Assembly (NCBI GenBank): GCA_016900015.1
Contig: JACJJM010000027.1
Location: 1 to 46,867, forward strand
Reading direction: 5' to 3'
Length of the DNA stretch: 46,867 nt
From: Phocaeicola coprophilus
GTDB taxonomy: Bacteria > Bacteroidota > Bacteroidia > Bacteroidales > Bacteroidaceae
Shown: positions 1 to 13,914 of the stretch, in pieces
How the letters are laid out: each line of letters opens with the position of its first letter
How positions within the stretch are numbered: the stretch's first letter is position 1
Position numbers and translations under genes: made by a program
The notes under the pieces: model-generated
What the model was told of the DNA's origin: nothing
The model's input: only the letters and a program-made list of their open reading frames with translations
Databases searched by the model: none

Positions 1-12
1 AAACTCAATTTT

Positions 13-158
13 CATACCTCCGCTGAATGTTTCTTCAAAAATATTTCCTAATGTTGCACTTGCTGGTTGACTCTGCCAAATGAAAGAGCCATGCACTGTA
101 TGCAAGAAACCCGCACGAAATGCATCCAATCATCAAAATATTTCCATACCTTCGCTGA
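13..158. repeat. Direct repeat pair upstream of the tetR gene
   Basis: The 14-base string CATACCTCCGCTGA at 13-26 recurs as CATACCTTCGCTGA at 145-158, one base different and 132 bp apart. The second copy ends about 30 bp before the start codon of the TetR gene. The strings are not palindromic, so they are not typical TetR operators. Nothing else is recognisable in bases 1-189. Confidence 0.4.
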
Positions 159-189
159 TTAAAAAAGCACAAAAAACATCTTATGCATC

Positions 190-801
190 ATGATAACAAA
201 TCGGGAAGAAGTGTTGGAGAAAGCCTTACAGGTATTCGCCAAGATGAACTATGAGAAGGCAAGCCTGGTGACCATCGCCAAAGCCTGCGGGCTGTCCAAG
301 TGGGGACTGATTTACTACTACCCCTTCAAGCAAGACCTGTTCATAGCAGTGGTAGACAAATATATCTTCACCATGCAAGACCCCGACCGGAAGTTCAGCT
401 TTCAGGGTGGCACGCTGCTGGAGTTCATTGACCACCACGTGGAAAGCGTAGAAAAGACCATGCGCCGCATCGTGGGATTGCTCGATGACGGAAACGACCC
501 GCATGGATGCAGCTACAACTTCTACTACTTCCACCTGCTGATGCAAGTACGCCAGTATTACCCCGATGCCAAGACGAAGTTCGCCGCCCTGTTCGAAAAA
601 GACCGGAAGCTGTGGAGCGACATCATCGAGCGGGCGAAGTCGTCGGGCGAAATCCGCGCAGAGGTGGATACGGAGGAAACCGTCAGCATGTTCCGCGAGG
701 TGTTCTACGGCTTGTCCTACGAGCAAGCATTCTTCTCCGGGTTGGACACAGGGGAACTCTCCCGCAAGCTCCGCTTCATCTATTCGCTGATTAAAGCCTG
801 A
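190..801 (+). CDS. TetR/AcrR family transcriptional regulator
   Basis: This 203-residue protein has the size and layout of a TetR family repressor. The N-terminal helix-turn-helix spans about residues 5-50 and contains the typical run TIAKACGLSKWGLIYYYPFK, in which recognition-helix residues are followed by the conserved Tyr-Tyr and Phe. The rest is helical and presumably forms the ligand-binding and dimer domain. The start at 190 lies just after an A-rich stretch; a clear Shine-Dalgarno site is not seen, which is common in Bacteroidota. An intrinsic terminator overlaps its stop codon. No efflux or enzyme gene is adjacent on this side, so the target is unknown; regulation of the recombinase locus next to it is possible but only an inference from proximity. 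Confidence 0.88.
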   Translation: MITNREEVLEKALQVFAKMNYEKASLVTIAKACGLSKWGLIYYYPFKQDLFIAVVDKYIFTMQDPDRKFSFQGGTLLEFIDHHVESVEKTMRRIVGLLDDGNDPHGCSYNFYYFHLLMQVRQYYPDAKTKFAALFEKDRKLWSDIIERAKSSGEIRAEVDTEETVSMFREVFYGLSYEQAFFSGLDTGELSRKLRFIYSLIKA

Positions 802-820
802 CCGTCGTTCAGGCTTTTTT
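793..820 (+). terminator. Intrinsic terminator after the TetR gene
   Basis: The stem AAAGCCTGA (793-801) pairs with TCAGGCTTT (809-817), and a run of T follows. The stop codon of the TetR gene is inside the 5' arm. Confidence 0.85.
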
Positions 821-879
821 ATGCCCTCCGGCCTCCCTTTCCTCTCTCTCGAAAAATCTTTTGCGACTTTTCCAAACCG

Positions 880-914
880 TTTGGTTCGTTTCTTCGATTC
901 TTTTCGTACCTTTG
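880..914 (+). promoter_or_regulatory. Bacteroidota-type promoter of the recombinase
   Basis: A TTTG at 880-883 and a TACCTTTG at 907-914 match the -33 and -7 elements of Bacteroidota promoters, with a spacer of 23 bp, which is a little long. Transcription would start around 919-922, downstream of an upstream in-frame ATG at 861. This supports starting the recombinase at 939. Confidence 0.6.
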
Positions 915-938
915 GGGCATGAAGCAAAATTCAGCGGC

Positions 939-2045
939 ATGGATAAGGTTCAGAAACAGCGAGGAAGCATCGTGCTGCACAAGGAGACAAGGGACGGTGC
1001 GGACTACATACGGATAGAATATGCGAACAGTCAGGCTGTCGCCCTGCTGCTCGCCCAGGATACAGGCGTGGAAATGACCGGCAAGGATTCCGCTTGCATG
1101 GCGGCTGCTGTTTTCAAGCTGTCGGATTTCTACGACCGCTATTCACCCCACGCCTACATTGATTACAGCCGCGTTTACATGCGGCATCCCAAACCCAAAA
1201 GGGAATACACGCTGCCGGAAGGCTACCTCGAACTGCTGGAGCAGAAGCGATACAGCCCCTCGACCGTGAAAACCTACCGTGCCTATTTCAGCGACTTCAT
1301 GGAATACCACAAGGGGCGGGACATCGACCGCCTGAAAGTGCCAGACATCAACAAGTACATCCTCTATCTCGTCAGCGAAAAGAAAATCTCGGTGTCACAG
1401 CAGAATATGCGCATCAATGCCATCAAGTTCTATTACGAGCAGGTTCGTGGCGGCAAACGGCAATACTACGGCAGCATAACACGAGCCAAAGAGTACAAAA
1501 CTCTACCGGAAGTATTGAGCAAGAATGAAATAAAGCGCATCCTCGACCAACTGTCAAACATCAAGCACCACTGCATGATTTCATTGGTTTACTCTGCCGG
1601 ACTGCGGCGGAGCGAGCTGCTGAACCTTATGCCTACGGACATCAACAGTGAAACGATGTCTGTCCGCATCATGGGCAAGGGAAAGAAATGCCGCTACTCG
1701 CTGCTTTCGCCCAAGCTGCTGGAAGAACTGCGGCAGTATTTCCGTGAATACCGACCGAAGAAATGGCTGTTTGAGGGCGAAACGCCCGGAGAGCAATATT
1801 CGGCAAGCGCATTGGTGAAAGTGCTGAAAGAAGCCGCGCAACGTGCGGGCATCAAGCACCGGGTGCATGTACACATGCTCCGCCACTCGTTTGCCACCCA
1901 CCTTTTGGAGCAAGGGACAGACTTGCATACGATACAAGAACTGCTCGGGCACAACGATATAAAGACCACTGCCATATATCTTCATGTGTCAAGTGCGCAC
2001 AAAGCCAAGATACCCAATCCGCTTGACACTCTGGATGATTCGTAG
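939..2045 (+). CDS. Tyrosine recombinase heading the cassette array
   Basis: This is a 368-residue site-specific tyrosine recombinase of the XerC/D-integrase superfamily. All expected active-site residues are visible: Arg223 in AGLRRSEL, His312 and Arg315 in HMLRHSF, His338 in LLGHND, and the nucleophile Tyr347 in TTAIYLHVS. A core-binding SAM-like domain lies near residues 95-190, preceded by about 90 less familiar residues. There is no IntI-type insertion between the beta-hairpin lysine region and HxxR, so it is not a classical integron integrase. The frame is open back to 861, but the promoter at 907-914 favours the ATG at 939. It lies directly upstream of, and co-oriented with, an array of putative immunity genes separated by hairpin repeats, so it probably acts on those repeats. 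That link is inferred. Confidence 0.93.
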   Translation: MDKVQKQRGSIVLHKETRDGADYIRIEYANSQAVALLLAQDTGVEMTGKDSACMAAAVFKLSDFYDRYSPHAYIDYSRVYMRHPKPKREYTLPEGYLELLEQKRYSPSTVKTYRAYFSDFMEYHKGRDIDRLKVPDINKYILYLVSEKKISVSQQNMRINAIKFYYEQVRGGKRQYYGSITRAKEYKTLPEVLSKNEIKRILDQLSNIKHHCMISLVYSAGLRRSELLNLMPTDINSETMSVRIMGKGKKCRYSLLSPKLLEELRQYFREYRPKKWLFEGETPGEQYSASALVKVLKEAAQRAGIKHRVHVHMLRHSFATHLLEQGTDLHTIQELLGHNDIKTTAIYLHVSSAHKAKIPNPLDTLDDS

Positions 2046-2080
2046 GGTACAGCTATTAGAGATTTGGAGATGCACCTATG

Positions 2081-2110
2081 AGGTGTTGTTTACCGAAGTA
2101 AAATACACCT
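2081..2110 (+). repeat. Hairpin between recombinase and first cassette (attI-like candidate)
   Basis: AGGTGTTGTTTAC (2081-2093), loop CGAA, then GTAAAATACACCT (2098-2110) forms an imperfect 13-bp stem. Downstream, TACATTAACATCAATAACA (from about 2129) resembles the 3' tails of the four intergenic repeats (CATTAnCAACC-like). The site sits 35 bp after the recombinase stop, where a primary attachment site would be expected. It could also be a weak terminator, since a short T run follows about 8 bp later. Confidence 0.5.
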
Positions 2111-2157
2111 GATGGGTACTTTTATAAATACATTAACATCAATAACAGTGTACCATA

Positions 2158-2913
2158 ATGGAAACAAGAGATAAACTTTTTACAGAAAAGCAATATTTAG
2201 ATCAACTGACTAAATATTCACGGAGAAGTAAACAACTGGAAAATAGTATTGATGAACTTCTTAAAGCGGAAAAAGAACATGTTCAGTTATATTCGATACC
2301 GAACAGAGAAGTTCTTAATAATAAATACAATACACTTTTTGGATGTAAACTAAATTCTTTTGTGACAAAATATTCAATGGGAGAAGATGCGGTAAAACTA
2401 AGAAGTGATTATGATGATTTAGTAAAAATATTAAAGGATAATTGGACTATTATAGGTGGATATGTACAGATGTTATGGATGTTATCTATAGGGATAATGT
2501 TAGATACAGATGAACGTAATATGAGGATATTGTCAAACATGATTGATAATGAAAATGTGAGTGATGCCTTGTATGACTTTTTAATAAAATACAGATTAAC
2601 CGATTGGGAAAGATGTTCCGACACAGTATTGTTTCCAGTTCCTTATCAAAGTACATTGTCTATAATTTCCAACAACAATCAAAGTAAAGAATTGTCCCTC
2701 CAGAAATTAGAGAAGTATCTTAAAAAGGAATGGTATCGAGGTCATTCTGATTGCTCTTGGCATAACGATCATAAATATGGTATCATACATGACGGTTATT
2801 GGAGCTTTGAAAGCGGTGCATTGGTCAAGGTCTTGGGGCTGGATGACAGCAGCCTGAAAGGGTTACCCTATTATCCATACGATATGGTACATTGGAACGA
2901 CAACACAAAATAA
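2158..2913 (+). CDS. PoNi-like immunity protein (DUF1910/DUF1911)
   Basis: This 251-residue protein resembles the cognate immunity proteins of PoNe DNase effectors. The C-terminal third carries the family pattern: a Trp-Tyr-Arg-Gly-His block, then GYWSFESGALVKVLGLDDSS, then YYPYDMVHW, which is how DUF1911 proteins normally end. The N-terminal half is helical and would correspond to the DUF1910 part. Immunity proteins of this type are cytosolic and bind and block a specific toxin nuclease. No PoNe toxin is encoded nearby, so this is an orphan immunity gene. The gene is visibly richer in A+T than the recombinase. A related 3' end occurs again at 3442-3475, evidence of cassette rearrangement. 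The start at 2158 follows the attI-like region directly. Confidence 0.8.
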   Translation: METRDKLFTEKQYLDQLTKYSRRSKQLENSIDELLKAEKEHVQLYSIPNREVLNNKYNTLFGCKLNSFVTKYSMGEDAVKLRSDYDDLVKILKDNWTIIGGYVQMLWMLSIGIMLDTDERNMRILSNMIDNENVSDALYDFLIKYRLTDWERCSDTVLFPVPYQSTLSIISNNNQSKELSLQKLEKYLKKEWYRGHSDCSWHNDHKYGIIHDGYWSFESGALVKVLGLDDSSLKGLPYYPYDMVHWNDNTK

Positions 2914-3458
2914 AGATAAGTATGAGTTACTCTGTTTGTGTATATTTGACAGAAGCCGATAAGGTAAAGTCTGTTTATGGAGCTTGTGATAATCTGCTGC
3001 TTAACCAATTCAAGGCAGCACTGAAGCCGGGACTTGACAGTTTGAACGATTATTTCAGCGATAGTCTGAACACGGATATGGATGCTTATGCTGTATTGGC
3101 TGATATTGTGAACGGAGAAATCCGTTATCCCGAAATCGCTTTCATGTACGGGTATGTGTATGAAAAGATTTGCAACCATTATGGAACGCAAATCTATTGT
3201 GCGGAAAACCTTTGGCAACTGGATAGCCAAAGTACATTCATCCCTATTCCATTGAGTGAAGATTTTCCTTATATCATTAGCATACCTGTTTCTGAATTGG
3301 AGAGTAAGAGGACGGAATACAATTCGCTGGAAGAGGGTAATGGTATCGGCGATTACAATTACGAGGAGGAAATGGACGACTTGAATTTCATTTTCGATGA
3401 AGCCATTGAAGCACAAAAGGACCTTGTGATTATGGTGTATTGATATGGTACACTGGAA
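2881..3458 (+). repeat. 17-bp direct repeat flanking the DUF7691-like gene
   Basis: GATATGGTACATTGGAA at 2881-2897, inside the 3' end of the PoNi-like gene, recurs at 3442-3458 with a single T-to-C change. The second copy overlaps the stop codon of the next gene and reads on as DMVHWNGNKI-stop, a relic of another PoNi C-terminus. The intervening gene therefore sits between two homologous PoNi 3' ends. Confidence 0.75.
2922..3443 (+). CDS. DUF7691-like protein, putative immunity protein
   Basis: This 173-residue protein begins MSYSVCVYLTEADKVKSVYG and has a middle motif AFMYGYVYEKICNHYG. This opening beta strand with a Tyr/Gly-rich YGYxYExIC block matches my memory of DUF7691, a family common in polymorphic-toxin and immunity neighbourhoods; the assignment is by eye. 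The sequence is acidic, with no signal peptide or membrane segment, so it should be cytosolic. I chose the ATG at 2922, 8 bp after the PoNi stop, over an in-frame ATG at 2892 inside the PoNi gene. There is no attachment-like repeat between the two, so they probably form one two-gene cassette or were fused by recombination at the flanking direct repeat. Confidence 0.6.
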   Translation: MSYSVCVYLTEADKVKSVYGACDNLLLNQFKAALKPGLDSLNDYFSDSLNTDMDAYAVLADIVNGEIRYPEIAFMYGYVYEKICNHYGTQIYCAENLWQLDSQSTFIPIPLSEDFPYIISIPVSELESKRTEYNSLEEGNGIGDYNYEEEMDDLNFIFDEAIEAQKDLVIMVY

Positions 3459-3475
3459 TGGGAATAAAATATGAT
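3442..3475 (+). pseudogene. Remnant of a second PoNi-like gene 3' end
   Basis: Starting at 3442 the sequence reads Asp-Met-Val-His-Trp-Asn-Gly-Asn-Lys-Ile-stop. The intact PoNi-like gene at 2158 ends YDMVHWNDNTK. The fragment is only about ten codons, but the nucleotide match (16 of 17 bases) makes chance unlikely. It is followed at once by the first intergenic repeat, where a complete PoNi cassette would normally end. Confidence 0.65.
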
Positions 3476-3530
3476 GTTAACGAAGCAGGATAACGGACAA
3501 GCCGTTCCCTGCTAAACCATTAGCAAAAAC
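3473..3530 (+). repeat. Cassette-boundary repeat R1 (integron-like attachment site)
   Basis: The element opens with GTTAACGAA (3476-3484), has a central hairpin GCAGG-AT-AACGG / ACAAG loop / CCGTT-C-CCTGC, and closes with ACCATTAGCAAAAAC. The outer ends form a weak inverted repeat. It shares order and spacing with R2-R4. Confidence 0.8.
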
Positions 3531-3539
3531 AGAAAGTCT

Positions 3540-3575
3540 ATGAACAAAGATTACCTTAAAATGATAGAACGATGA
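3540..3575 (+). pseudogene. Eleven-codon leader or vestigial cassette ORF
   Basis: An ATG at 3540, at the position where cassette genes usually start relative to the repeat, opens a frame reading MNKDYLKMIER and stops at 3573-3575. That TGA overlaps the ATG (3572) of the next gene. It may be a translational-coupling leader or the remaining N-terminus of an older cassette gene replaced by the LRR-NTF2 gene. Neither reading can be proved here. Confidence 0.4.
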
Positions 3576-4549
3576 TAAAAGAACTTACTTCTTTTCCCAA
3601 GCGGGCACGTACCATCGACTGGGAGGACGGCAAACTGATTTTTGATGGCGACAAGGTGATGCTCATGCCCGAGCTGTCTGTGGAGGTGATGCAACAGATT
3701 GGCGCTTATCCTGCTTTGGTGGGATTTCATGTCAAGCATTACCCTTTGACAGACGAACAGGTTCAACCGCTGGCTGGTGCCAAGAAAATGGTCAATGTAG
3801 GAATCGAATATGCGGAGCTTACCGACGCATGCTTTGCGGTATTTGCCACCATGCCCGCTTTGAAGTATCTGCTTTTGGCAGGAAATCCTGCAATTACGGG
3901 AAAGGGGTTGTCCACGATGCAGGCAAGTAAGGTGGATTTGTTGGACTTGAGTGCCACGTCGCTGGACGATGAGGGGTTGCATCTGGCAGCTCTGCTTCCG
4001 AAGCTGAGTCATTTGCATGTCCGGCAGACTCAAATCACCTATGAAGGGGTGCTTGGCATTGCTTTCAATAAACGCCTTTCCTTGCGTCCTGACGACCTCT
4101 TTACCCAGGAGCAGATGGAGCTGTTCGCCTCGTTGCAACGAAACCAGGCGAAGAAGAAGCTGGAGGTGGACGCTGATGCGGTTCATCAGGCGGAACAGGT
4201 GCTGTATGCTTTCTTTGCCGCCATGACTCAATGGGAGAAATATACCGACCAGGCAGGTTTTGATGCGCCGGATGTGCGACCGAAGTTGCAGCAGATTTGG
4301 CAGCAGTATGTATCCGAGAAGCCACGGATGGGGTATCGGCCGCTCGCTTTGTCGCTTTCTCCAGAGGGGACGTATGCCGCCTTCCGCCTGGTTGATGCCG
4401 AACAGGTTTCCCGCAACAAACTTTACATCTATGCGCAGGATGAAAGAATCAATCTCGACTATCGTTTCTGGATGAAACGTGTGGGGGAAGCATGGAAAAT
4501 TGATGCAGTACAGATGCGGACAGACGGGTGGAGGCGTTGTGGATTGTAA
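3572..4549 (+). CDS. LRR-NTF2 fusion protein, putative immunity protein
   Basis: This 325-residue protein has two parts. Residues about 45-175 form leucine-rich-repeat-like units: PALVGFHVKHYPLTDEQVQPL, MPALKYLLLAGNPAITGKGL, VDLLDLSATSLDDEGL and LPKLSHLHVRQTQITYEGV all show the LxxLxLxxT/N pattern (repeat ends trimmed here). Residues about 210-325 look like an NTF2-like alpha-beta cone: a helix with QVLYAFFAAMTQWEKYTD, then strands ending RFWMKRVGEAWKIDAVQMRT, the usual fold ending. NTF2-fold proteins are frequent immunity proteins, and LRR proteins also occur in such arrays. There is no signal peptide. It is bounded by repeats R1 and R2 and is more GC-rich than its neighbours, suggesting separate origin. 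The exact toxin target is unknown. Confidence 0.6.
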   Translation: MIKELTSFPKRARTIDWEDGKLIFDGDKVMLMPELSVEVMQQIGAYPALVGFHVKHYPLTDEQVQPLAGAKKMVNVGIEYAELTDACFAVFATMPALKYLLLAGNPAITGKGLSTMQASKVDLLDLSATSLDDEGLHLAALLPKLSHLHVRQTQITYEGVLGIAFNKRLSLRPDDLFTQEQMELFASLQRNQAKKKLEVDADAVHQAEQVLYAFFAAMTQWEKYTDQAGFDAPDVRPKLQQIWQQYVSEKPRMGYRPLALSLSPEGTYAAFRLVDAEQVSRNKLYIYAQDERINLDYRFWMKRVGEAWKIDAVQMRTDGWRRCGL

Positions 4550-4654
4550 AAAGAGGAACTTGAACGAAATTGCATTCAGGAATGATATTTTCAATTCCGG
4601 GTAATAGACGGTATCTTGTTCATAGACCTAACCCAATATTAGAATGGGTATAAT

Positions 4655-4715
4655 ATTTTGCTAACAAACCGGGATAACGCTTAACAGCGTTCCCTGCTGA
4701 ACCATTAACAACCAT
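4655..4715 (+). repeat. Cassette-boundary repeat R2
   Basis: The element opens with GCTAACAAA (4660), has the hairpin GGGATAACGC-TTAACA-GCGTTCCC, and closes with CTGAACCATTAACAACCAT (up to about 4714). The stem bases AACGC/GCGTT differ from R1 (AACGG/CCGTT) but still pair, a compensatory change that supports a structured site. Confidence 0.82.
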
Positions 4716-4730
4716 AAAAAAGAAAAAGAT

Positions 4731-5336
4731 ATGACAACAAAAAAATTTGCAGATTTTATCGAGAAACAAGCACGGAGTATATTAAATGTTTCTGCTGAAC
4801 CAATCTTTGGAGAATATATACTCACAAGAAATGGAAAGAAAATAGGTGTCTTGTATCAGAATCAATGTTATCTTTTTCTTACCGACAAAGCGAAAGAGTT
4901 GTTGCCTGATGCAAAAGTCTGTCGTCCATATAAGTACCCACCCGGAGAACCGGATTTTATATTGGTAGAAGATACTACTAATCAAGAATTGCTTTGTTCA
5001 TTATTTAAGGCCACTTATGATAAGTTCTATGCTTGGCAGGATTTATTTTATGATTTTTCCGGTATATTTTCTTTCAATAAAGGTTTCATGAACGATATAG
5101 AAAGGCTATATAATGATTTTGTTGTCTTATTATCTTCTTCTTGGGAGAATGGCTTTCTAAAAGTGCGTCCAATAGACACAAAAGGTAGAATCATAAAGTT
5201 AGAATTTAGGCGAAGAGATTTAACTCCAGAAGGAGAAAAATACTTTTTTCCGTTCAGTCATAAGTTCATTTTATATACAGATAGGACGTCAAAGACACCT
5301 TCTGAAAAATTAATAAAAAATGGTTGGATGAGGTAA
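4731..5336 (+). CDS. TfoX-N-like domain protein, putative immunity protein
   Basis: This 201-residue protein has an N-terminal segment (about residues 20-98) like the TfoX N-terminal fold: a GEY motif followed by a Gly-Lys turn, a hydrophobic strand CYLFLT, then RPYKYPPGEPDFILVED and a closing helix LLCSLFKATYDKFY. TfoX_N proteins normally show the same GEYxL, PYPGAKP and LLxAT features. Residues about 99-201 form a second domain that I do not recognise, with a Tyr/Phe-rich helix and strands ending in KFILYTDRT. The gene is A+T-rich, has no signal peptide, and lies between repeats R2 and R3, so it is likely a separate cassette. An immunity role is inferred from position only. Confidence 0.5.
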   Translation: MTTKKFADFIEKQARSILNVSAEPIFGEYILTRNGKKIGVLYQNQCYLFLTDKAKELLPDAKVCRPYKYPPGEPDFILVEDTTNQELLCSLFKATYDKFYAWQDLFYDFSGIFSFNKGFMNDIERLYNDFVVLLSSSWENGFLKVRPIDTKGRIIKLEFRRRDLTPEGEKYFFPFSHKFILYTDRTSKTPSEKLIKNGWMR

Positions 5337-5350
5337 GAAATGAATAAAGG

Positions 5351-5416
5351 TTGGTTGTTAACAAGCGGCTTAACCTCCCCTAAAAGGTCGGTTAGCCACC
5401 AAACATTATCAACCAT
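5351..5416 (+). repeat. Cassette-boundary repeat R3
   Basis: TTGGTTGTTAACAAGC (5351 on) and ATTATCAACCAT (5405-5416) form the clearest outer inverted repeat (TGGTTGTTAA against TGGTTGATAA on the other strand). The inner stem is GGCTTAACC / GGTTAGCC with a longer loop than in R1, R2 and R4. It begins 15 bp after the stop codon of the preceding gene. Confidence 0.8.
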
Positions 5417-5429
5417 AAAACGTAGAAAT

Positions 5430-6020
5430 ATGTACGAAGAATTTTTAGAAAAAAGCCTCAATAGTAAGAGGCAAGCAGTAGATGATACTTTTATTGCTAA
5501 ATATGCTGATTTGTCTTATCCCGAACTGAATACTTTATGGCAGGAAGTCGGGCTGGGCAGTTATTGCAATGGACTGTTTAAGCTTATCAATCCGTCCGAT
5601 TACCAAGATGTGATGAACTCTTGTTATGTCATGGAGTATGATAAATCGTTTCTGCCGTTCATGTGTACGGCTTTCGGTGATGTCTTTGCCTATGTAAAGA
5701 ACCCGAGACTAAATAATTACGTCGTTTATTTGAATGTCAGATACGGAACGTATTTAATACTTCCCGCCAATCTTCGTGCGATTTTTAATAAAGTAATGGT
5801 AAATGAAAGTTTCTTGAAAGGTTGGTTTGATTTAGAGAATTATCCTGTAATACAAGAGAAACTCGGAACTCTCGGCTATGACGAGTGTTTCGGATATTCT
5901 CCACTTTTGGCAATGGGAGGAAGTGAGAATCTTGAAAACATCAAGATAGTCAAGACTATTCCGTACATTGACATTTGTACCCAAACAATCGGTGAATTTG
6001 AAGTTGCAGATAAGTTTTGA
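5430..6020 (+). CDS. Tdi1-like (DUF1851) immunity protein
   Basis: This 196-residue protein matches the layout of T6SS immunity proteins of the Tdi1 type: an N-terminal GAD-like region (FLEKSLNSK through YPELNTLWQEVGLGSYCNG) and a C-terminal DUF1851-type end, where GYSPLLAMGGSENLENIKI precedes a closing helix YIDICTQTIGEF. Tdi1 neutralises the NADase or Tde-class effector of its own locus in other bacteria; the toxin countered here is unknown. An in-frame start exists at 5340, but that would translate through repeat R3, so the ATG at 5430, 14 bp beyond R3, is preferred. It has no partner toxin nearby, so it is an orphan immunity gene. The family assignment is by motif recognition. Confidence 0.75.
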   Translation: MYEEFLEKSLNSKRQAVDDTFIAKYADLSYPELNTLWQEVGLGSYCNGLFKLINPSDYQDVMNSCYVMEYDKSFLPFMCTAFGDVFAYVKNPRLNNYVVYLNVRYGTYLILPANLRAIFNKVMVNESFLKGWFDLENYPVIQEKLGTLGYDECFGYSPLLAMGGSENLENIKIVKTIPYIDICTQTIGEFEVADKF

Positions 6021-6030
6021 GATTAGAACA

Positions 6031-6090
6031 GGTTGATAACAGCGCAGGATAACGGACAAGCCGTTCCCTACCAAATCATTATAAACTTTA
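6031..6090 (+). repeat. Cassette-boundary repeat R4
   Basis: GATAACAGCGCAGG (from 6035) is followed by AACGG-ACAAG-CCGTT and then CCCTACCAAATCATTATAAAC. The 20 bases from GCAGGATAACGG into the loop are identical to R1, although the two elements are about 2.5 kb apart. The outer right arm is less well conserved. Confidence 0.82.
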
Positions 6091-6103
6091 AAACCAAACA
6101 GAC

Positions 6104-6397
6104 ATGAGCATCTTTTTGAAAGCGGTGTAACGCACCAACCCACAAGATCCGAAAGCCCCGAAGCGGTGGTTTCCGGTGCAGTACACCACCAAGATGGTGG
6201 ACGAAAACGAAGTGGCAATGCTGATTGCCGACAAGACGACCGACGCGTTTTCCGTGAGTTGGGCAACTCAGCTCGGCGAGTCGGGCAACTCTCGGGAACG
6301 GGGTTGCCGAAAACGGGATTGGATGCCCAAAGAATGCGACTGTCATAGATTAGGAAATTGCCTGCTCTTCAACATGGACAAGAATGACCAACTTTAA
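6104..6397 (+). pseudogene. Broken HU-like DNA-binding protein gene
   Basis: From the ATG at 6104 the frame reads MSIFLKAV, then a TAA at 6128-6130, then RTNPQDPKAPKRWFPVQYTT and VDENEVAMLIADKTT. This is the N-terminus of the Bacteroidota HU-like family, whose members read ...VQRxNPxDPKAPKxWYPV...; the TAA replaces the expected CAA or CAG glutamine codon. After the DKTTDAF segment (about 6250) the HU similarity ends and the frame continues with an unrelated Ser/Gly/Arg-rich stretch to 6397. The gene therefore has both a nonsense mutation and a lost C-terminal two thirds. It starts at the normal cassette position after repeat R4, so it may be a decayed cassette. Confidence 0.75.
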
Positions 6398-6426
6398 TAA
6401 AACAACCAAAATAACATTTATGCCTT

Positions 6427-7920
6427 ATGAAAAACAATTATTCAAAACTCCTTGAGCAAATAACAAACTGGGTGGACAACGGCGAATACCTGAAAGTGCT
6501 GGAAACACTGCTCGACATCCCGCGCGAGGACTATGACACACAACTCGTGGGCATCCTCGCCCGCACCTACAACAGTCTGGGAGAGTACGAAAAAGCTATC
6601 CCGCTGCTACTTTCCATCGAAGATGAAAGCCAGGACGACACAAACTGGTTCTACCGCCTGGGCAACTCCTACTACTACACTGGGCGAATCGAAGAAGCCG
6701 AAGAGTGCTTCATCCGCGCAGCCGAACTCGACCCCGACGACATCGACACCAAAGAGTTTGTCTACCGTTGCCGCCCCAGCTTCACGGCCCGTGTCGACGA
6801 ATTCTGGCACTGGTTTGAGAAAAACGAACGCAGGCTATGCGACATCAGCGAACGCCGCAGCGAACATGTCCGGGAGTACAGCCTGAAGCTCATCGAACAA
6901 GGCTTGTCCATCATCGGGCCGGACATCCTGTTCAACATCGGAGGCGACCATGAGTTCACCTTTTCCGTACATGGGGAAGACTATCTCTTCTACCTCACTC
7001 CTTACATCGTCGATCGCATGCCTGAAAGCCTGAAAGGCAAATGGCACGTCAACCCTTACAACTACGGGACTGAAGGAAAAGGATTCACCTTCAACATGTA
7101 TGGCAAGCAGATTGCCTGCGCCGACGTGCGTGTGAAAGCGGACTACGACGACGCGAGGAATGCCGTATCGCTGAGATTCTTCCATCCTGAGTTTAACAAT
7201 ATCGACGAAAACGACGCGCTCAATGCATTTTACACCTTATTTAGCATATCCATGGGCGAAGCGTTTACTTACAACTATATCGACCAACTGAAGCGGACCG
7301 ACGCGGAAGAAGAAGGCATGATGCCTCTGACGGATCTGTATGCCAGCTTACGCCAACGGATAGAATCGTATGGCAAGCAGATGCAGGAATCGCCCAGCAA
7401 GCACTACAACACATACCGCTGCAACCCGGACACCAGCGGAGAGTTCTACAATGCCCGCTTCGACGTCATAAGCGGCACGACCAACTACACAGCCCTGGTG
7501 CGTGACTACTATCAAGCTGAGATGTATCGCAACGTGAAGTTGATGGCCTTTGGCGCCAAAGCGGCCTATCTGGCATTCACCTACGACAACAACGAGGAGG
7601 AGCGCAAGAAAATGCTCGACCTGCGCTACGAACTGGAGGACCGCATCGCCAAAGAAATCTTCCTGCACGGGGACGAACATCCGGGCAACGGATGTGTGCT
7701 GGGCGGAGCAACAGGCATAGAATGCATGTACATCGACTTGCTGCTGTTTGACGAAAAAGACTTTATCCGACGGATGCGCGAAATGAGCAAAGACTATCCC
7801 ATAAACATGGTTCTTTCAGATTTCCGCTTAGGCGCATGGTACACACTCATTCAGGCCCACGACGACAATCCCGTAAGCCACAAATATTTGTCACGCTGCA
7901 TTCGCCGTGACGACTTGTGA
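6427..7920 (+). CDS. TPR-repeat protein, last gene of the defence array
   Basis: This is a 497-residue cytosolic protein. Residues about 15-115 contain tetratricopeptide repeats (LVGILARTYNSLGEYEKAIPLL and FYRLGNSYYYTGRIEEAEECF units, trimmed here, with the Gly/Ala/Tyr TPR pattern). Residues 120-300 form an alpha-beta domain with HEFTFSVHGEDYLFYL, and residues 380-480 a further domain with a Gly-rich GNGCVLGGATGIECMYIDLL motif. TPR proteins with this N-terminal sequence type occur widely near polymorphic toxins and their immunity genes, but I cannot name the C-terminal family. No attachment-like repeat separates it clearly from the HU pseudogene, and it is more GC-rich than the immunity cassettes. 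It may be an immunity protein or simply the flanking gene. Confidence 0.6.
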   Translation: MKNNYSKLLEQITNWVDNGEYLKVLETLLDIPREDYDTQLVGILARTYNSLGEYEKAIPLLLSIEDESQDDTNWFYRLGNSYYYTGRIEEAEECFIRAAELDPDDIDTKEFVYRCRPSFTARVDEFWHWFEKNERRLCDISERRSEHVREYSLKLIEQGLSIIGPDILFNIGGDHEFTFSVHGEDYLFYLTPYIVDRMPESLKGKWHVNPYNYGTEGKGFTFNMYGKQIACADVRVKADYDDARNAVSLRFFHPEFNNIDENDALNAFYTLFSISMGEAFTYNYIDQLKRTDAEEEGMMPLTDLYASLRQRIESYGKQMQESPSKHYNTYRCNPDTSGEFYNARFDVISGTTNYTALVRDYYQAEMYRNVKLMAFGAKAAYLAFTYDNNEEERKKMLDLRYELEDRIAKEIFLHGDEHPGNGCVLGGATGIECMYIDLLLFDEKDFIRRMREMSKDYPINMVLSDFRLGAWYTLIQAHDDNPVSHKYLSRCIRRDDL

Positions 7921-8000
7921 CGACTCTGTCCAAAGGCCAAAGTTTGCCAAGACACACAACTTCTTGCCGGACATTGTCGTCTGAGTCTTAGAATATGATG

Positions 8001-8008
8001 TATCTTTG
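8001..8008 (+). promoter_or_regulatory. -7 element upstream of the FemAB-like gene
   Basis: TATCTTTG at 8001-8008 is a perfect Bacteroidota -7 element. The best -33 candidate, TTG at 7974-7976, is 24 bp away, which is longer than usual. Confidence 0.5.
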
Positions 8009-8083
8009 CAGGCAGGTGCGACACAATGCCCCGTCCCACGTGGCACAGTGTCGCGCCTCTCCCACGGATAATTATCCTGCCTG

Positions 8084-9064
8084 ATGAAAGTTGTCGTCAA
8101 AACCTATAAAAGAAGTCAGGACATCCCTGCAGAAGTGAAGGGGAACAGCCTGTTCCACTCCCGAGAATTGTTCACCATCTGCGAACAGACTCCGGGATAT
8201 ACTCCATTGCTGTTCGTAGCCTGGCGAAGCGAAAGACCTGTCGGCAAACTGCTGTGCATTGTACGCAAAAGCGAACGGCACTTCCCTCCCTCCTTTATCA
8301 AGCGCGGAGAAATCTATGGCACCGGCGAGTATGCCCCAGGCGAGCACGAAGAAAGCCTGTTCAAAGTCCTACTTGAAGAACTGACCCGCACAGCGCTCGA
8401 CATGTGTTTCCTTATCGAATTTCGCAATCTGTCCAACCCGCTTTTTGCCTACCGATATTTTCGTGAAAACAAATACTTCCCCATCAACTGGCTTCGCATA
8501 CACAACTCCCTGCACAACAGACCTCCGATGGCACGAATGAGTGCGTCCCGTCGCAGGCAAATCAAACGTGGCCTTCAAAACGGTGCGTCCATTCACGTCG
8601 CCCAAAGCTCAGAAGAAATCTATGAATTCTTCAAACTCATGAAGAAATACTATGCCACAAAAATACGCAAACACTTCCCTGGCATGAATTTCTTCCTCCA
8701 GCTGGTCAATGAATACCCCGACAAAGAAATCGGACGCATATATATTATAAGGTATAAAGGAAAAATCATCGGAGGCTCCATCTGCGTATTTTCTGACGGA
8801 AACGCCTACTTGTGGTTTTCGGCAGGACTACGCAAAAGCTATCCCAGACAATACCCCGGTGTTCTAGCCGTGTGGGCTGCCATCGACTATGCTTACCGAC
8901 ATGACTATGACCATATCGAATTCATGGATGTAGGGTTGCCTTTCAAACAATATGGCTACCGCAACTTCATCCTACGATTTGGCGGCATCCAATACGGCAC
9001 GCGACGCTGGTTCCGATTCCGTTGGAAATGGCTTAACAATCTTATTACCAGATTCTATATCTGA
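8084..9064 (+). CDS. FemAB/GNAT-like acyltransferase
   Basis: This 326-residue protein looks like the double-GNAT fold of FemAB-related proteins that add amino acids or acyl groups to cell-wall or lipid substrates. The visible hallmarks are the ASRRRQIKRGLQNG segment (about residues 163-176), the GRIYIIRYKGKIIGGSICVF strand pair, the YLWFSAG strand, and the closing YDHIEFMDVG with KQYGYRNFILRFGG. There is no signal peptide, so it acts in the cytosol or at the membrane face. It stands alone, with its own probable promoter. The substrate cannot be told from the sequence, and peptidoglycan is only one possibility. Confidence 0.75.
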   Translation: MKVVVKTYKRSQDIPAEVKGNSLFHSRELFTICEQTPGYTPLLFVAWRSERPVGKLLCIVRKSERHFPPSFIKRGEIYGTGEYAPGEHEESLFKVLLEELTRTALDMCFLIEFRNLSNPLFAYRYFRENKYFPINWLRIHNSLHNRPPMARMSASRRRQIKRGLQNGASIHVAQSSEEIYEFFKLMKKYYATKIRKHFPGMNFFLQLVNEYPDKEIGRIYIIRYKGKIIGGSICVFSDGNAYLWFSAGLRKSYPRQYPGVLAVWAAIDYAYRHDYDHIEFMDVGLPFKQYGYRNFILRFGGIQYGTRRWFRFRWKWLNNLITRFYI

Positions 9065-9313
9065 CCGTCTTCCTCCTATCCCAACTCCATATACCTCCGC
9101 CTGTCCAAGGAGACAAATAGACAGGAAGCTCTGGCCTTCATCATGTATCTTAAGGCCTTATGTGTATCATTTTGCTTAGAATAAATGAAATAATCAACAA
9201 TATACAACATTTTTTCACTACAAAATAATTGCGGAAATATTTCTTTATTCAGTTCAAAAGCACTACTTTTATCCCAATTTAAGAACTATAATATTTAACT
9301 AAAGCGAAGAATC

Positions 9314-9718
9314 ATGAAAATCTCACACATTGAGCATTTAGGAATTGCTGTCAAAAGCATAGAAGAAGCTCTCCCTTATTATGAAAACGTATTAGGGCTG
9401 AAATGTTATAATATTGAAACCGTAGAAGATCAAAAAGTTAAAACAGCCTTTTTGATGGTGGGCGACACGAAAATCGAATTGTTGGAACCAACCTCTCCTG
9501 ACAGCACCATCGCCAAATTCCTTGAGAACAGAGGTGCAGGCGTACATCATGTAGCTTTCGCCATCGAAGACGGTGTGGCTAACGCCTTGGCTGAAGCTGA
9601 AGGAAAAGGGATCCGCCTCATAGACAAAGCGCCCCGTAAAGGAGCCGAAGGACTGCACATCGCATTCCTGCACCCGAAATCAACTCTTGGTGTCTTGACT
9701 GAACTATGTGAGAAATAA
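9314..9718 (+). CDS. mce: Methylmalonyl-CoA epimerase
   Basis: This 134-residue protein interconverts the R and S forms of methylmalonyl-CoA in the succinate-propionate pathway. It belongs to the glyoxalase/VOC fold: two beta-alpha-beta-beta-beta units starting with HIEHLGIAVKSIEEALPYYE and GAGVHHVAFAIED. Metal ligands are likely His8, the His pair of GVHHVAF and the Glu of GVLTELCE. The length fits the family (about 130-150). It is the first gene of a five-gene operon with the decarboxylase subunits; the next gene starts 39 bp downstream. About 250 bp of gene-free DNA precede it, with no convincing complete promoter seen. Confidence 0.95.
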   Translation: MKISHIEHLGIAVKSIEEALPYYENVLGLKCYNIETVEDQKVKTAFLMVGDTKIELLEPTSPDSTIAKFLENRGAGVHHVAFAIEDGVANALAEAEGKGIRLIDKAPRKGAEGLHIAFLHPKSTLGVLTELCEK

Positions 9719-9757
9719 AAATAACAGAAACCTTAATTATACAGAATTCATATTGTT

Positions 9758-11311
9758 ATGAGTAAACAATTAGAAAGAATCAAAGAGCTTGTTGAACTTC
9801 GTGCCCAGGCTCGCTTAGGTGGCGGAGAAAAAGCCATCGGCAAACAACACGACAAAGGTAAGTACACAGCACGCGAACGCATTGACATGTTGCTGGACAA
9901 AGGTAGCTTTGAAGAGTTGGACATGTTTGTTCGCCACAGATGTACGAACTTCGGTCAGGAGAAAAAATCTTTCCCGGGTGATGGCGTCGTAACAGGTTAT
10001 GGCACGATAGACGGCCGTTTGGTTTATGTGTTTGCGCAAGATTTCACAGTGTTCGGAGGTTCATTGTCTGAGACTATGGCCCAAAAGATCTGCAAAGTGA
10101 TGGATTTGGCCATGAAGATGGGTGCTCCGGTTATTGGCATCAACGACTCTGGAGGTGCTCGTATCCAGGAAGGCATCAACGCTTTGGCTGGATATGCCGA
10201 AATTTTCCAACGCAACATCTTGGCTTCTGGTGTCATCCCGCAGATTTCCGGCATTTTCGGTCCATGTGCCGGAGGCGCCGTATATTCTCCAGCTTTGACA
10301 GACTTCACACTCATGATGGAAGGCACTTCATACATGTTCCTTACCGGTCCGAAAGTGGTAAAAACCGTAACGGGTGAAGATGTGTCTCAAGAAGATCTTG
10401 GCGGCGCGAGCGTCCACTCTACGAAATCCGGCGTAACACACTTTACGGCATCTACCGAAGAAGAAGGCTTGGCACTGATTCGCAAATTGCTCAGCTATAT
10501 TCCTCAAAACAATATGGAAGAAGCTCCCTACGTGGAATGCACTGACCCCATCGACCGTATGGAAGATTCACTCAATGAAATCATCCCGGACAATCCCAAT
10601 AAAGCTTATGACATGTATGAAGTCATCAGTGCGATTGTCGACAATGGAGAATTCTTGGAAGTGCAAAAACACTATGCCACAAATATTATTATCGGTTTCG
10701 CACGCTTCAACGGACAGTCTGTGGGTATCGTAGCCAACCAACCTTGCCGCTATGCCGGAGTGTTGGACTGCAACGCTTCCCGCAAAGGTGCACGTTTCGT
10801 CCGTTTCTGCGACGCTTTCAACATTCCTATCGTATCATTGGTTGACGTTCCAGGATTCCTCCCAGGCACAGGACAAGAATACAATGCAGTCATCCTTCAC
10901 GGAGCTAAACTGCTCTATGCTTACGGTGAAGCCACAGTGCCTAAAGTCACAGTGACTCTGCGTAAATCTTATGGAGGCTCACACATCGTCATGAGCTGTA
11001 AGCAACTCCGCGGTGACATGAACTACGCATGGCCATCTGCCGAAATCGCCGTAATGGGTGGTGCGGGAGCTGTTGAGGTCCTCTATGCAAAAGAAGCCAA
11101 AGAAGCAGCCGATCCGAAGGCATTTATGGCAGAAAAAGAAGCAGAATACACGAAGCTCTTTGCCAATCCTTACAATGCAGCCAAGTATGGCTATATCGAC
11201 GATGTCATCGAGCCTCGCAACACTCGTTTCCGCATCATTCGCGCTTTGGCTCAACTCCAGACCAAGAGAGTGACCAATCCTGCCAAAAAACATGGAAACA
11301 TACCTTTGTAA
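9758..11311 (+). CDS. mmdA: Methylmalonyl-CoA decarboxylase alpha / carboxyltransferase subunit
   Basis: This 517-residue carboxyltransferase of the acyl-CoA carboxylase beta family transfers the carboxyl group of methylmalonyl-CoA to biotin on the carrier encoded two genes downstream. The crotonase-fold motifs are clear: [19 protein letters not shown] and [17 protein letters not shown] in the N-terminal half (oxyanion-hole glycines), and [20 protein letters not shown] and [19 protein letters not shown] in the C-terminal half. Length and ends are typical. The gene order epimerase, alpha, gamma-like, carrier, beta points to a Na+-pumping decarboxylase rather than an ATP-dependent propionyl-CoA carboxylase, because a membrane beta subunit is present and no biotin carboxylase is. 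Its role is propionate formation coupled to Na+ export. Confidence 0.95.
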
Positions 11312-11332
11312 TCACTTAAATACCACAAATAC

Positions 11333-12250
11333 ATGCTCAAAATGAATATCTACAAAAGAATCCTAACAGGATTATTCATTGTCTTAGGATTGGTATCGTG
11401 CAACCAGCATGACGGCACTTCGAAAATATTACTTAATGAAGTGCTGACAGACAACGCGGCCAACTTCGAAGATGATTATGGCATTCATAGTGCATGGATT
11501 GAAGTATTTAACAAGTCTTACAATAGTGTCGACCTGGCCGGCTATTTCTTAAAAGTCTCCAATGAGCCAGGCGACACTATCTCTTACATTATTCCCAAAG
11601 GAGACGTTCTGACCGTCGTGCGACCTCGGCAGCATGCCTTGTTTTGGGCTGACGCAAAGCCCAATCGGGGGACATTCCATACAAATTTCACACTTAACAA
11701 CGGACACCCATGCTGGATTGGAATTTATGACTCCGGCAACAAGTTGCTGGACGAAATCGTAGTACCGGCACTGAAAACTGACGAGTCATACGCCCGTGTC
11801 CAAGATGCATCCAAAGAGTGGGAAATCAAGAGTGGCAGCACGACAAAATACGTAACTCCAAACACAAACAATCAAACCATCGAGAAAAATGAAAAAGTAG
11901 AGAAGTTTGAACAACACGACAGCGACGGCATCGGAATGTCGCTCACAGCCATGCTCGTGGTGTTTAGCGGACTGATTCTACTTTATATCATTTTCCGTAT
12001 TCTTGGTAAAGCGATATTCGCAAAAAGCGAATCCACTAAACAACATGTAAATATGAAACAAGAAGAAACGACCAACAAGTGTGCAGAAACTTCCAGCAAC
12101 GAAGTGTATGCAGCCATAGCAATGGCACTTCACGAAGAATTTGGAGGTGTACACGACATCGAGTCTAACATATTGACCATCCGTCGCGTGCATTCCCCTT
12201 GGAGTGCTAAATATGATGCCTTGCGCGTCATCCCGAGAAAAAAACAATAA
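11333..12250 (+). CDS. Lamin-tail/OadG fusion lipoprotein, decarboxylase gamma-like subunit
   Basis: This 305-residue protein has three parts. A lipoprotein signal peptide ends with LVSC at about residue 23. Residues about 30-165 form a lamin-tail-like immunoglobulin fold beginning ILLNEVLTDNAANFEDDYG, with WIEVFNKSYNSVDLAGYFLK typical of that domain. A single membrane helix (MLVVFSGLILLYIIFRILGK, about residues 206-225) follows, then a cytosolic tail with the OadG-like ending AAIAMALHEEF. OadG/gamma subunits are normally about 80-120 residues and only anchor the decarboxylase complex; the extracytoplasmic lamin-tail domain is an unusual addition. It sits 21 bp after mmdA in the operon. An alternative start at 11342 would drop three residues. 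Confidence 0.8.
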   Translation: MLKMNIYKRILTGLFIVLGLVSCNQHDGTSKILLNEVLTDNAANFEDDYGIHSAWIEVFNKSYNSVDLAGYFLKVSNEPGDTISYIIPKGDVLTVVRPRQHALFWADAKPNRGTFHTNFTLNNGHPCWIGIYDSGNKLLDEIVVPALKTDESYARVQDASKEWEIKSGSTTKYVTPNTNNQTIEKNEKVEKFEQHDSDGIGMSLTAMLVVFSGLILLYIIFRILGKAIFAKSESTKQHVNMKQEETTNKCAETSSNEVYAAIAMALHEEFGGVHDIESNILTIRRVHSPWSAKYDALRVIPRKKQ

Positions 12251-12293
12251 GTGCAAATATCTAATCTACCCATTATCTAAGAACCATTGAATT

Positions 12294-12737
12294 ATGAAAG
12301 AATATAAATATACCATCAACGGCAAGGAATACAAAGTAACCATCGGTGAAGTGAAAGACAACGTAGCCAATGTCGAAGTAAACGGTGAGTCCTACAAAGT
12401 GGAAATGGAGAAAAAAGAAGAAGCTCCGAAACCCGTCGTCCGTCCTGTTGTCAAACCTGCAGCTCCTGCGCCCCAACCAGCAGCACCGGCCCAAGCAGCA
12501 GCTCCCGCAGCCAGCAAAGCAGCAGGAAGAGGCGTCAAATCACCACTTCCCGGCGTAATCATCGACGTCAAAGTGAACGTGGGAGACCAGGTTAAAAAGG
12601 GACAGACCGTAATCATCCTGGAAGCCATGAAGATGGAAAATAACATTAACGCCGATCAAGACGGCACAATCACCGCCATCAATGTCAAGCAAGGTGACTC
12701 CGTATTGGAAGGAACTGACCTTGTCTTGATAGGCTAA
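12294..12737 (+). CDS. mmdC: Biotin carboxyl carrier protein of methylmalonyl-CoA decarboxylase
   Basis: This 147-residue biotin carrier has a C-terminal biotinyl domain (about residues 80-147) with the EAMKMEN motif; Lys113 is the biotinylation site. The domain is joined to an N-terminal strand region by a flexible Ala-Pro-rich linker (about residues 48-75). It shuttles the carboxyl group from the MmdA active site to the membrane beta subunit. The position between the OadG-like gene and the beta subunit, 43 bp and 16 bp away, agrees with a methylmalonyl-CoA decarboxylase rather than a fatty-acid carboxylase carrier. The symbol is assigned by function. Confidence 0.92.
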   Translation: MKEYKYTINGKEYKVTIGEVKDNVANVEVNGESYKVEMEKKEEAPKPVVRPVVKPAAPAPQPAAPAQAAAPAASKAAGRGVKSPLPGVIIDVKVNVGDQVKKGQTVIILEAMKMENNINADQDGTITAINVKQGDSVLEGTDLVLIG

Positions 12738-12753
12738 AAAGAACAATACACCT

Positions 12754-13914
12754 ATGGGAGAATTTGTTTCATTCATCGCCAACAACCTGGCAGACTTTTG
12801 GACCTACACCGGTTTCTGCAATGCGACTCCGGGACATCTGGTCATGATTCTGGTGGGGCTTTTCTTCATTTACCTGGCCATCTCCAAAGAGTTCGAACCC
12901 ATGTTGCTAATTCCGATTGGATTCGGTATCCTTATCGGCAACATCCCCTTCAACATCGAAGCCGGACTCAAGGTAGGCATCTATGAAGAAGGGTCTGTAT
13001 TGAACATTCTCTATCAAGGTGTGACCGCGGGATGGTATCCCCCACTCATATTCTTGGGAATCGGGGCAATGACAGACTTCTCTGCCCTGATTTCCAACCC
13101 GAAGTTGTTACTTATCGGAGCTGCCGCACAGTTCGGCATCTTTGGCGCATACATGATTGCACTCGAAATGGGTTTCAACCCGATGCAAGCAGGCGCTATC
13201 GGCATCATCGGAGGAGCCGACGGCCCAACGGCCATCTTCCTTTCCTCCAAACTGGCCCCCAACCTTATGGGAGCGATTGCCGTCTCCGCCTATTCTTACA
13301 TGGCATTGGTGCCCGTCATACAACCACCCATCATGCGCCTGCTTACGACCAAGAAAGAACGGGTCATGCGCATGGCTCCTCCGCGGCGCGTGTCACACAC
13401 GGAGAAAGTGATGTTCCCCATCATCGGCCTCCTGCTTACATGCTTCCTCGTTCCGTCAGGCTTACCGCTATTGGGTATGTTGTTCTTCGGCAACTTGCTA
13501 AAAGAAAGTGGCGTCACACGCCGTTTGGCTGAGACCGCACGTGGTCCGCTGATTGACACAATCACCATCTTGTTGGGATTGACAGTCGGTGCATCCACCC
13601 AAGCTTCAGAGTTCCTCACATGGGACTCCATAAAGATTTTCATGCTGGGTGCTCTCTCATTCATCATCGCGACGGCTTCAGGCGTCCTGTTTGTGAAACT
13701 ATTCAATCTCATCCTGCCCAAACACAAACGAATCAATCCGCTCATCGGCAATGCCGGTGTATCCGCAGTCCCCGATTCGGCACGCATTTCGCAGATTCTC
13801 GGCTTGGAATATGATCCGACCAACTACCTGCTGATGCACGCCATGGGTCCCAATGTCGCCGGAGTCATCGGTTCAGCCGTAGCAGCCGGTATCCTGCTGG
13901 GCTTCTTGATGTAA
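12754..13914 (+). CDS. mmdB: Na+-pumping decarboxylase beta subunit
   Basis: This 386-residue polytopic membrane protein is the beta subunit of Na+-transporting decarboxylases. It decarboxylates carboxybiotin and exports Na+. It contains about nine to eleven hydrophobic segments and the family motifs GIIGGADGPTAIF, AVSAYSYMALVPVIQPPIM and GNAGVSAVPDSARI, in which an Asp and the Asn/Gly-rich re-entrant loops line the Na+ path. The length is in the usual range (about 375-435). It is the last gene of the operon, and a strong convergent terminator follows 22 bp downstream. Confidence 0.95.
   Translation: MGEFVSFIANNLADFWTYTGFCNATPGHLVMILVGLFFIYLAISKEFEPMLLIPIGFGILIGNIPFNIEAGLKVGIYEEGSVLNILYQGVTAGWYPPLIFLGIGAMTDFSALISNPKLLLIGAAAQFGIFGAYMIALEMGFNPMQAGAIGIIGGADGPTAIFLSSKLAPNLMGAIAVSAYSYMALVPVIQPPIMRLLTTKKERVMRMAPPRRVSHTEKVMFPIIGLLLTCFLVPSGLPLLGMLFFGNLLKESGVTRRLAETARGPLIDTITILLGLTVGASTQASEFLTWDSIKIFMLGALSFIIATASGVLFVKLFNLILPKHKRINPLIGNAGVSAVPDSARISQILGLEYDPTNYLLMHAMGPNVAGVIGSAVAAGILLGFLM

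Follow-up and report, generated by a model that had tools for sequence, protein, structure and literature searches.

The tyrosine recombinase locus and its cassettes

The 46,867-nucleotide (nt) stretch of DNA analysed here, referred to as the window, is contig JACJJM010000027.1 of the Phocaeicola coprophilus assembly GCA_016900015.1. Near its start it carries a tyrosine recombinase gene followed by an array of genes, all on the + strand, in the order PoNi, DUF7691, leucine-rich repeat (LRR) plus Imm-NTF2, a 201-amino acid (aa) protein and Tdi1/GAD-like. The genes are arranged in cassettes that end in hairpin sites, and the arrangement resembles that of an integron (Table 1). An initial annotation had described a complete recombinase with small genes of the same direction behind it, at least two of them from known immunity families, as an array of recombinase-associated acquired interbacterial defence (rAID). 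The match to Phage_integrase and the common orientation of the genes are confirmed, and PoNi, Tdi1/GAD-like and Imm-NTF2 are above the Pfam cut-offs.

Table 1. Features of the recombinase locus and array, in window coordinates
Feature	Position	Strand	Evidence or remark
TetR-family regulator	190..801	+	Pfam TetR_N 1.3e-7
TAnnTTTG motif, short distance 5' of recombinase start	907..914	+	pattern match alone
Tyrosine recombinase, XerA/IntI-like, complete	939..2045	+	Pfam Phage_integrase 5.9e-39
attI-like region	2046..2132	+	joint to cassette 1 at A2132|T2133
Cassette 1: PoNi + DUF7691	2133..3519	+	ends TTAACATC...GATGTTAA, from sequence
PoNi gene, cassette 1	2158-2913	+	Pfam PoNi_N 3e-18 / PoNi_C 6.1e-31
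DUF7691 gene, cassette 1	2922-3443	+	Pfam 3.3e-25
attC-like hairpin site 1; final 3 nt are the cassette 2 start	3478..3522	+	R1 63.3 bits, E 9.8e-13 in own genome
Cassette 2: LRR + Imm-NTF2	3520..4704	+	ends TTAGCAAAA...TTTTGCTAA
LRR + Imm-NTF2 gene, cassette 2	3572-4549	+	Imm-NTF2 2.8e-21; LRR matches under own cut-offs
attC-like hairpin site 2	4662..4707	+	R1 60.3 bits
Cassette 3: 201-aa protein (4731-5336) without family assignment	4705..5405	+	ends TTAACAACC...GGTTGTTAA
attC-like hairpin site 3, variant form	5359..5408	+	R1 38.7 bits
Cassette 4: Tdi1 / GAD-like immunity protein (5430-6020)	5406..6078	+	ends TTATCAACC...GGTTGATAA
attC-like hairpin site 4, final site of array	6037..6081	+	R1 55.7 bits
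Incomplete end, without closing arm for a fifth cassette; probable HU-HIG gene relic, in-frame stop	6079..6420		sequence, DNA match

The motif upstream of the recombinase resembles the -7-like type of Bacteroidota. GC content is 0.328 and 0.402 in the two genes of cassette 1, and 0.489, 0.332 and 0.377 in those of cassettes 2, 3 and 4. The cassette 4 protein matches GAD-like (2.3e-12) and Tdi1_C (5.4e-20) in Pfam. Its start is most likely at 5430, because homologues align from there and an open reading frame from 5340 would cross a recombination site. The LRR-NTF2 member proposed at first stands for its Imm-NTF2 part and falls short for its LRR part. A TfoX_N identity for the cassette 3 protein, also proposed at first, is rejected: the match scores 13 bits where the cut-off is 30.1 (E 0.12), the AlphaFold model has a pLDDT of 52, and a single homologue (L043) is present among the loci examined. 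The Pfam search of the five array genes gave no match to a toxin family. Ntox15, the toxin family that corresponds to Tdi1, gave no match genome-wide in a search whose control was equally silent and which did not extend to PoNe or other effectors.

The array had been drawn as far as 7920 but ends near 6081, and the tetratricopeptide repeat (TPR) gene at 6427-7920 is outside it. As a fifth cassette this gene was rejected: it is not bounded by sites, and the closing arm TTTATAA is absent from 6001-12000. Its GC content is 0.521, compared with 0.33-0.49 in the cassettes. Distant relatives of the TPR gene (31-40%) are found in L016, L082 and L039, and the L016 copy is located between two sites. 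The stretch 6104-6300 at the array end is a probable HU-HIG relic with an in-frame stop. The DNA there matches L016:6353-6533, which overlaps an HU-HIG gene likewise directly after a site; the window piece 6131-6397 gave no Pfam match. Elsewhere, the genome encodes a type VI secretion system (T6SS) sheath gene, TssC (G000:C103:24088-25374). Three tyrosine recombinase matches are on the same contig about 26 kb away (C103:51239-54058), perhaps in a conjugative element.

Folded sites and cassette borders

Three conserved repeats were evident at first, and a fourth, divergent one was found on reading the DNA. Sixty site sequences from the window and its relatives were aligned and a covariance model was built from the alignment. 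The structure consists of a 3-pair outer helix and a 10-pair inner helix, with 91.4% of cells paired compared with 81.3% in shuffled alignments; sliding the pairing partner by 1-3 columns drops this to 27.5-42.8%. The covariation score is 0.278 against 0.103 for shuffled alignments, and none of 500 shuffles reaches it. Seven of the ten inner pairs vary on both sides, and four pairs do so in 16-19 of 59 sequences each.

The covariance model gives 206 matches (E<=0.1) in 41 of 80 sources, which include the training loci, and 206 is not an independent count. All matches share the orientation of the recombinase (+ strand); 203 are downstream of it and three upstream (all in L016). In the 3.79 Mb genome of the window there are four matches at E<=0.001, far above chance, all in the array and none elsewhere, which bears out the structured repeats between cassettes seen in the initial annotation. 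The variant form of site 3 is also found in arrays of a second recombinase clade (similar sites are in L052 and L053). A search of viral contigs for the exact core site pattern gave 0 matches.

The cassette borders follow a simple rule. A cassette begins with A|TTA (the bar marks the exchange point) and about 6 further nt, which are the reverse complement of the end of the same cassette; the covarying hairpin of about 45 nt follows. Runs of at least 7 complementary nt, TTA included, are present in 107 of 157 intervals and in 3 of 198 comparisons across the site itself. The mean arm run is 6.91, and random pairing gives a mean of 3.45 with a maximum of 3.81 in 1000 trials. Distinct intervals no longer than 1000 bp number 93, and in 79 of them at least four of five variable positions pair (shuffled, 198/1860; site-spanning, 13/198). 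In these 93 intervals the variable positions are each complementary in 84-90% of cases; one position further the value drops to 48%, beyond that to background, and at position -1 it is 1%. This fall-off, together with the near-absent pairing at position -1, places the boundary at A|TTA. Intervals longer than 1000 bp have a lower complementarity of 45-63%, as expected if a site was missed. When one cassette per homology family is taken, 60 of 67 obey the arm rule (shuffled mean 7.3, maximum 16 in 2000).

For window cassettes 2-4, DNA folding of the rejoined ends yields hairpins in which a spacer separates a 9-pair arm stem from the inner stem. Across the 67 families, the fold of the circular form is better than that of the in-array form in 60 and equal to it in 7, and in none is it worse. 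Circularisation would bring the first ~8-9 nt of a cassette next to its last ~9 nt, and the two would base-pair across the hairpin. The predicted folded site has two stems, an outer one formed by the arms and an inner one, with an unpaired spacer between them, and exchange would fall between A and TTA.

The sites could instead be ordinary double-stranded DNA sites of the Xer/dif type, at which the recombinase would swap cassettes as duplex DNA and the hairpin would reflect no more than two inverted arms bound by it. Inverted binding arms are usual for tyrosine recombinases, and the recombinase here is without the insert found in integron integrases (IntI) and scores near XerA/XerD. However, the outer arms vary by cassette yet pair within each, and this, with the two-sided changes in the four inner pairs, speaks for base pairing rather than for a fixed binding sequence. 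We consider a double-stranded Xer/dif-like site unlikely.

The attI-like boundary, turnover and distribution

In most alignments that cross the attI-like region, the similarity of relatives stops at 2134-2145. A region ending in A|TTA before differing first cassettes was counted by eye in 25 of 31 close sources; three of the remainder have A|TTC at attI, and in three the region is not recognisable. In one of the loci (L012:11271-12491) an IS91-type (Y2) transposase gene is located directly after attI with the junction A|TTC, and the first bases after attI in L010 and L016 are similar to those in L012. An IS91-type element may use the attI exchange region in L012.

Turnover of cassettes, as opposed to a fixed gene set, had been anticipated and is observed: cassettes 1, 2 and 4 are present elsewhere as separate blocks with other neighbours, their borders at the exchange points. 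Cassette 1 is found as a 98.1% identical block (2131-3522) in B. propionicigenes (L019), where by the sites found it is the second cassette. Cassette 2, found in P. coprocola as 96% blocks (3519-4708 in L029, 3519-4717 in L035), is the first cassette there. Cassette 3 has an 80% relative in Paraprevotella clara (L043, block 4700-5366). Blocks of 86-91% represent cassette 4 in L035, L028, L011, L023, L015 and L018, and it is in first position in Xylanibacter rarus. Shared blocks, defined as at least 250 nt at 80% identity, were compared over 26 of the 31 close sources. Their borders lie no more than 12 nt from an exchange point for 77 of 139 starts and 86 of 139 ends (chance 2.6%), and for both ends in 54.

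A TetR homologue (44-92% identity) accompanies the recombinase in 32 of 32 close loci and, at E<=1e-8, in none of the 50 others. It is 99-173 bp 5' of the recombinase in 31 of the 32, and 5.1 kb upstream in L016. The L016 locus, from Phocaeicola intestinalis, has at 4293-8658 a TetR gene (92% to that of the window), three sites and SUKH/HU-HIG/Tdi1 genes, all 5' of the recombinase. This is apparently a relic or a rearranged second array that resembles the window locus.

These data bear on whether the array is altered solely by homologous recombination at shared intergenic repeats, with the recombinase an unrelated neighbour. Repeats of ~45 nt could support exchange, and the array in genome G198, described below, is in keeping with such a process. 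However, homologous recombination would not create cassette-specific arms, first cassettes differ at the attI boundary, and TetR and the recombinase are constantly present, so that this explanation is quite improbable. That the array is an ordinary immunity operon whose hairpins serve as transcription terminators or as RNA elements is very improbable. The hairpins do follow stop codons closely, and the genes run in one direction, but there is no + strand terminator-like site in 1900-6500 (2 on the - strand; shuffles mean 3.4), and in window 1-14000 Rfam gave a single match at E<=1, to snoU82P (E 0.12), which is under its gathering score, lies inside a gene and is taken as chance. The whole-cassette arm pairing and the homology breaks at A|TTA would be left unexplained.

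The distribution of the module is patchy. With stricter filters, 2 of 148 genomes of the order have sites (the window's own and G146), and the same 2 have a recombinase >90% identical. Of 41 genomes around B. bouchesdurhonensis, which is itself a training locus, 4 have sites and 3 of these have a 74-92% recombinase; G221 has a 49% recombinase and no sites. At E<=1e-70 a search of 14 genomes of the same genus, 9 of them under 90% complete, did not find the recombinase, and one member of another genus in the same family has it at 88%. Two plasmids, from P. distasonis and B. ovatus, carry TetR, recombinase and array; they have 8 and 11 sites, and genes in them are annotated as T6SS immunity genes. 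The TetR-recombinase-array module was probably gained horizontally.

The cargo is uniform in orientation and composition. The longest open reading frame is on the + strand in 178 of 180 intervals, and interval GC has a median of 0.336, with 6 of 180 above 0.41; the median for the recombinases is 0.487. Families among 150 array proteins are Tdi1 (11), Imm-NTF2 (8), PoNi (6), Imm5 (4), Imm11 (4), Imm43 (3) and SUKH-1 (3), and further ones include ankyrin, TPR, LRR and DUFs (25 of 47 families listed).

Relation to rAID arrays and integrons

The best NCBIfam match of the recombinase is XerA_Arch, "site-specific tyrosine recombinase/integron integrase", at 214.6 bits (cut-off 220). Among PDB sequences the best match is IntI4 (3.9e-36; integron complex 2a3v), followed by XerA (PDB 4a8e, 4e-33). 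A fold search with the predicted model (pLDDT 81.9, pTM 0.53) also ranks IntI4 first. IntI4 residues 221-243 fall between two stretches matched by the recombinase. The recombinase has a conserved N-terminal domain of ~80 aa that may, as a guess, do the work of the IntI insert. Of 577 confirmed recombinase relatives, 79 loci were kept. In a tree with an unresolved backbone, several long rows and bootstrap values that had not settled, the window clade and a second gut clade group together (97/98) and three IntIs group apart (100/99). Several Acinetobacter plasmids (Acinetobacter baylyi pJAT2044, L110; similar H13-H25) carry a recombinase with 49% identity over residues 129-366; the annotation of L110 places it between tet(X3) and an IS91-like ISVsa3 transposase.

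Arrays of the second gut clade obey the arm rule in 59 of 95 intervals (shuffled, 142/1900; across sites, 7/129). These sites come from a loose finder that gave 129 on the + and 28 on the - strand of the same stretches. Bacteroides gallinarum (L033, L039) carries both recombinase clades, and in L045 high-scoring sites of the window's clade (A) are behind a recombinase of the second (B); the clades therefore seem to share cassettes. Maribellus sp. YY47 (L085) has a 48% recombinase relative, with no insert in the alignment. Behind it come repeats of a ~120-nt site and five cassettes, whose arms read G|TTA...TAAC; the strict GTTRRRY is found in 1 of 5 cassettes. No match at the IntI cut-off was found in that genome by a search that scored stretches and was run without a true IntI as positive control; the best gene is the same recombinase, with two stretches summing to 202.5 bits. 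In a search for cassette chains behind environmental recombinases, chain length compared with the best of five shuffles is 5 vs 4 for L085, 7 vs 4 for L059, 6 vs 5 for L061 and 2 vs 1 for L084. Chain length by itself is indecisive, and L085 is set apart because its arms flank repeated sites and all five have G|TTA...TAAC. Minus-strand counts in this test are uninformative because inverted repeats are symmetric.

Published criteria for rAID are a tyrosine recombinase homologous to B. fragilis BF9343_RS08045 and at least two co-directional downstream genes of <41% GC, together with predicted immunity proteins, no cognate effector and conserved intergenic motifs (PMC12247911). The window has low-GC co-directional genes, predicted immunity proteins and conserved intergenic motifs. 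This comparison, made over these three features, supports the rAID reading of the initial annotation and the membership of the array in a known kind; nothing tested contradicts it. Shared with rAID as published are the tyrosine recombinase, co-oriented and mostly low-GC genes, the Tdi1/PoNi/SUKH/Imm families and intergenic motifs (PMC12247911). Spread across several Bacteroidales genera and occurrence on two plasmids are also shared. Cassette 4 is in the same Tdi1 family as the orphan tdi genes. Two orphan members of that family protect P. vulgatus (PMC10470768), and protection by orphan Tdi and rAID proteins has been published for other members (PMC10470768, PMC12247911); the proteins of the window may act likewise. 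New as far as checked are the cassette borders, the attC-like site structure, attI, the TetR partner and the second clade with related sites. This cassette/attC logic, absent from the initial annotation, is the more interesting part. The 2019 study of Ross and colleagues may have likened rAID to integrons, which bears on novelty; the word "integron" is absent from three rAID papers searched for it.

The features shared with integrons are an attI beside the recombinase, a variable first cassette, one site per cassette, one-way cassettes, whole-cassette exchange, terminal arms that pair with each other solely when the cassette is circular, and a site whose structure is conserved while its sequence varies. 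The differences are that the window recombinase is under the IntI cut-off and without the insert, the core is A|TTA and not G|TTRRRY, the sites are compact (~45-50 nt, arms ~8-9 nt) and the cargo consists of immunity genes. The recombinase resembles Xer/XerA in sequence, but it is linked to gene cassettes and TetR and has the extra N-terminal domain. The cassette/attC logic and a recombinase near IntI4/XerA without the IntI insert make rAID arrays look like integrons with a Bacteroidota recombinase outside IntI. By the IntI model, the insert and the core this is not an integron; it probably works like one, as an integron-type system. A canonical integron with a true IntI is hardly credible: the overall architecture of attI, cassettes and folded sites is alike, but two defining tests fail (family cut-off and insert), the three IntIs stand apart from the gut clades in the tree with its unresolved backbone, and the core differs.

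The preferred reading, to which we give a probability of about 0.8, is that this is a rAID-type array of orphan immunity genes that has the organisation of an integron and probably arose in the same way as one. The recombinase would insert circular cassettes at the attI-like site A2132|T2133 and could excise them. Each cassette would bring a single attC-like site together with one immunity gene or two; cassettes would keep one orientation, lack a recombinase of their own and be swapped between species. Recombination would take place on a folded single-stranded site, as by IntI, and TetR may control the system. The immunity proteins are predicted to neutralise T6SS-type effectors from neighbours.

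Several observations weigh against this reading. The evidence is comparative, and no recombination has been observed. Comparison of sequences shows the borders, the complementary arms, the conserved inner hairpin, the attI boundary, the turnover and the linkage of sites with recombinase and TetR, whereas the role of this enzyme, the folded single strand, control by TetR and protection by these proteins are inferred. The second-best NCBIfam match of the recombinase, to the integron integrase model TIGR02249, is at 191.3 bits against a cut-off of 265. The IntI insert is lacking, and the spacing from GKG to HxLRH is 65-66 aa in 13 relatives compared with 107-108 in two IntIs. IntegronFinder2 ties this insert to a single-stranded folded substrate (PMC9024848). 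The arms have the core A|TTA. The R' core motif of integrons is GTTRRRY. Two of five covariation measures are not clearly above shuffles (both-side changes, 64/500; further pair types, 393/500), and the arm rule does not hold in 14 of the 93 short intervals. Known exchange points are far from 62 starts and 53 ends among the 139 shared blocks; missed sites are a likely, not a proved, explanation. Twenty genomes of the order with a 44-55% recombinase relative have no such sites. Conversely, G198 (C111:10748-30049) has ten sites in 20 kb and no recombinase at E<=1e-70; either the cassette array there has no recombinase or the assembly has a gap. In the generic chain test, which is weak, most environmental relatives and some gut loci with known sites are at shuffle level.

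A broader proposal, for which we see about even odds, is that Bacteroidota have an integron lineage of their own, with a recombinase that has the conserved N-terminal domain instead of the IntI insert. It would use two kinds of folded site, compact A|TTA in gut rAID (two clades, cassettes seemingly shared) and long G|TTA in Maribellus. rAID would be the gut branch for immunity genes, TetR would perhaps replace SOS control, and the IntI insert would then not be required.

A 2025 preprint states that the acquisition of rAID gene copies is not yet clear and that rAID biogenesis is an active research area (PMC12247911). The cassette borders, the exchange point and the folded site make this biogenesis directly testable. 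In its treatment of Bacteroidetes/Chlorobi, the IntegronFinder2 paper names Chlorobi, Ignavibacteriae and Salinibacter ruber, and not gut Bacteroidales (PMC9024848). If the integron-like reading is true, integron finders that require IntI would overlook such arrays, and an automatic listing of cassettes could provide a catalogue of orphan immunity families. Gut Bacteroidales would then gather antitoxins as other bacteria gather resistance genes.

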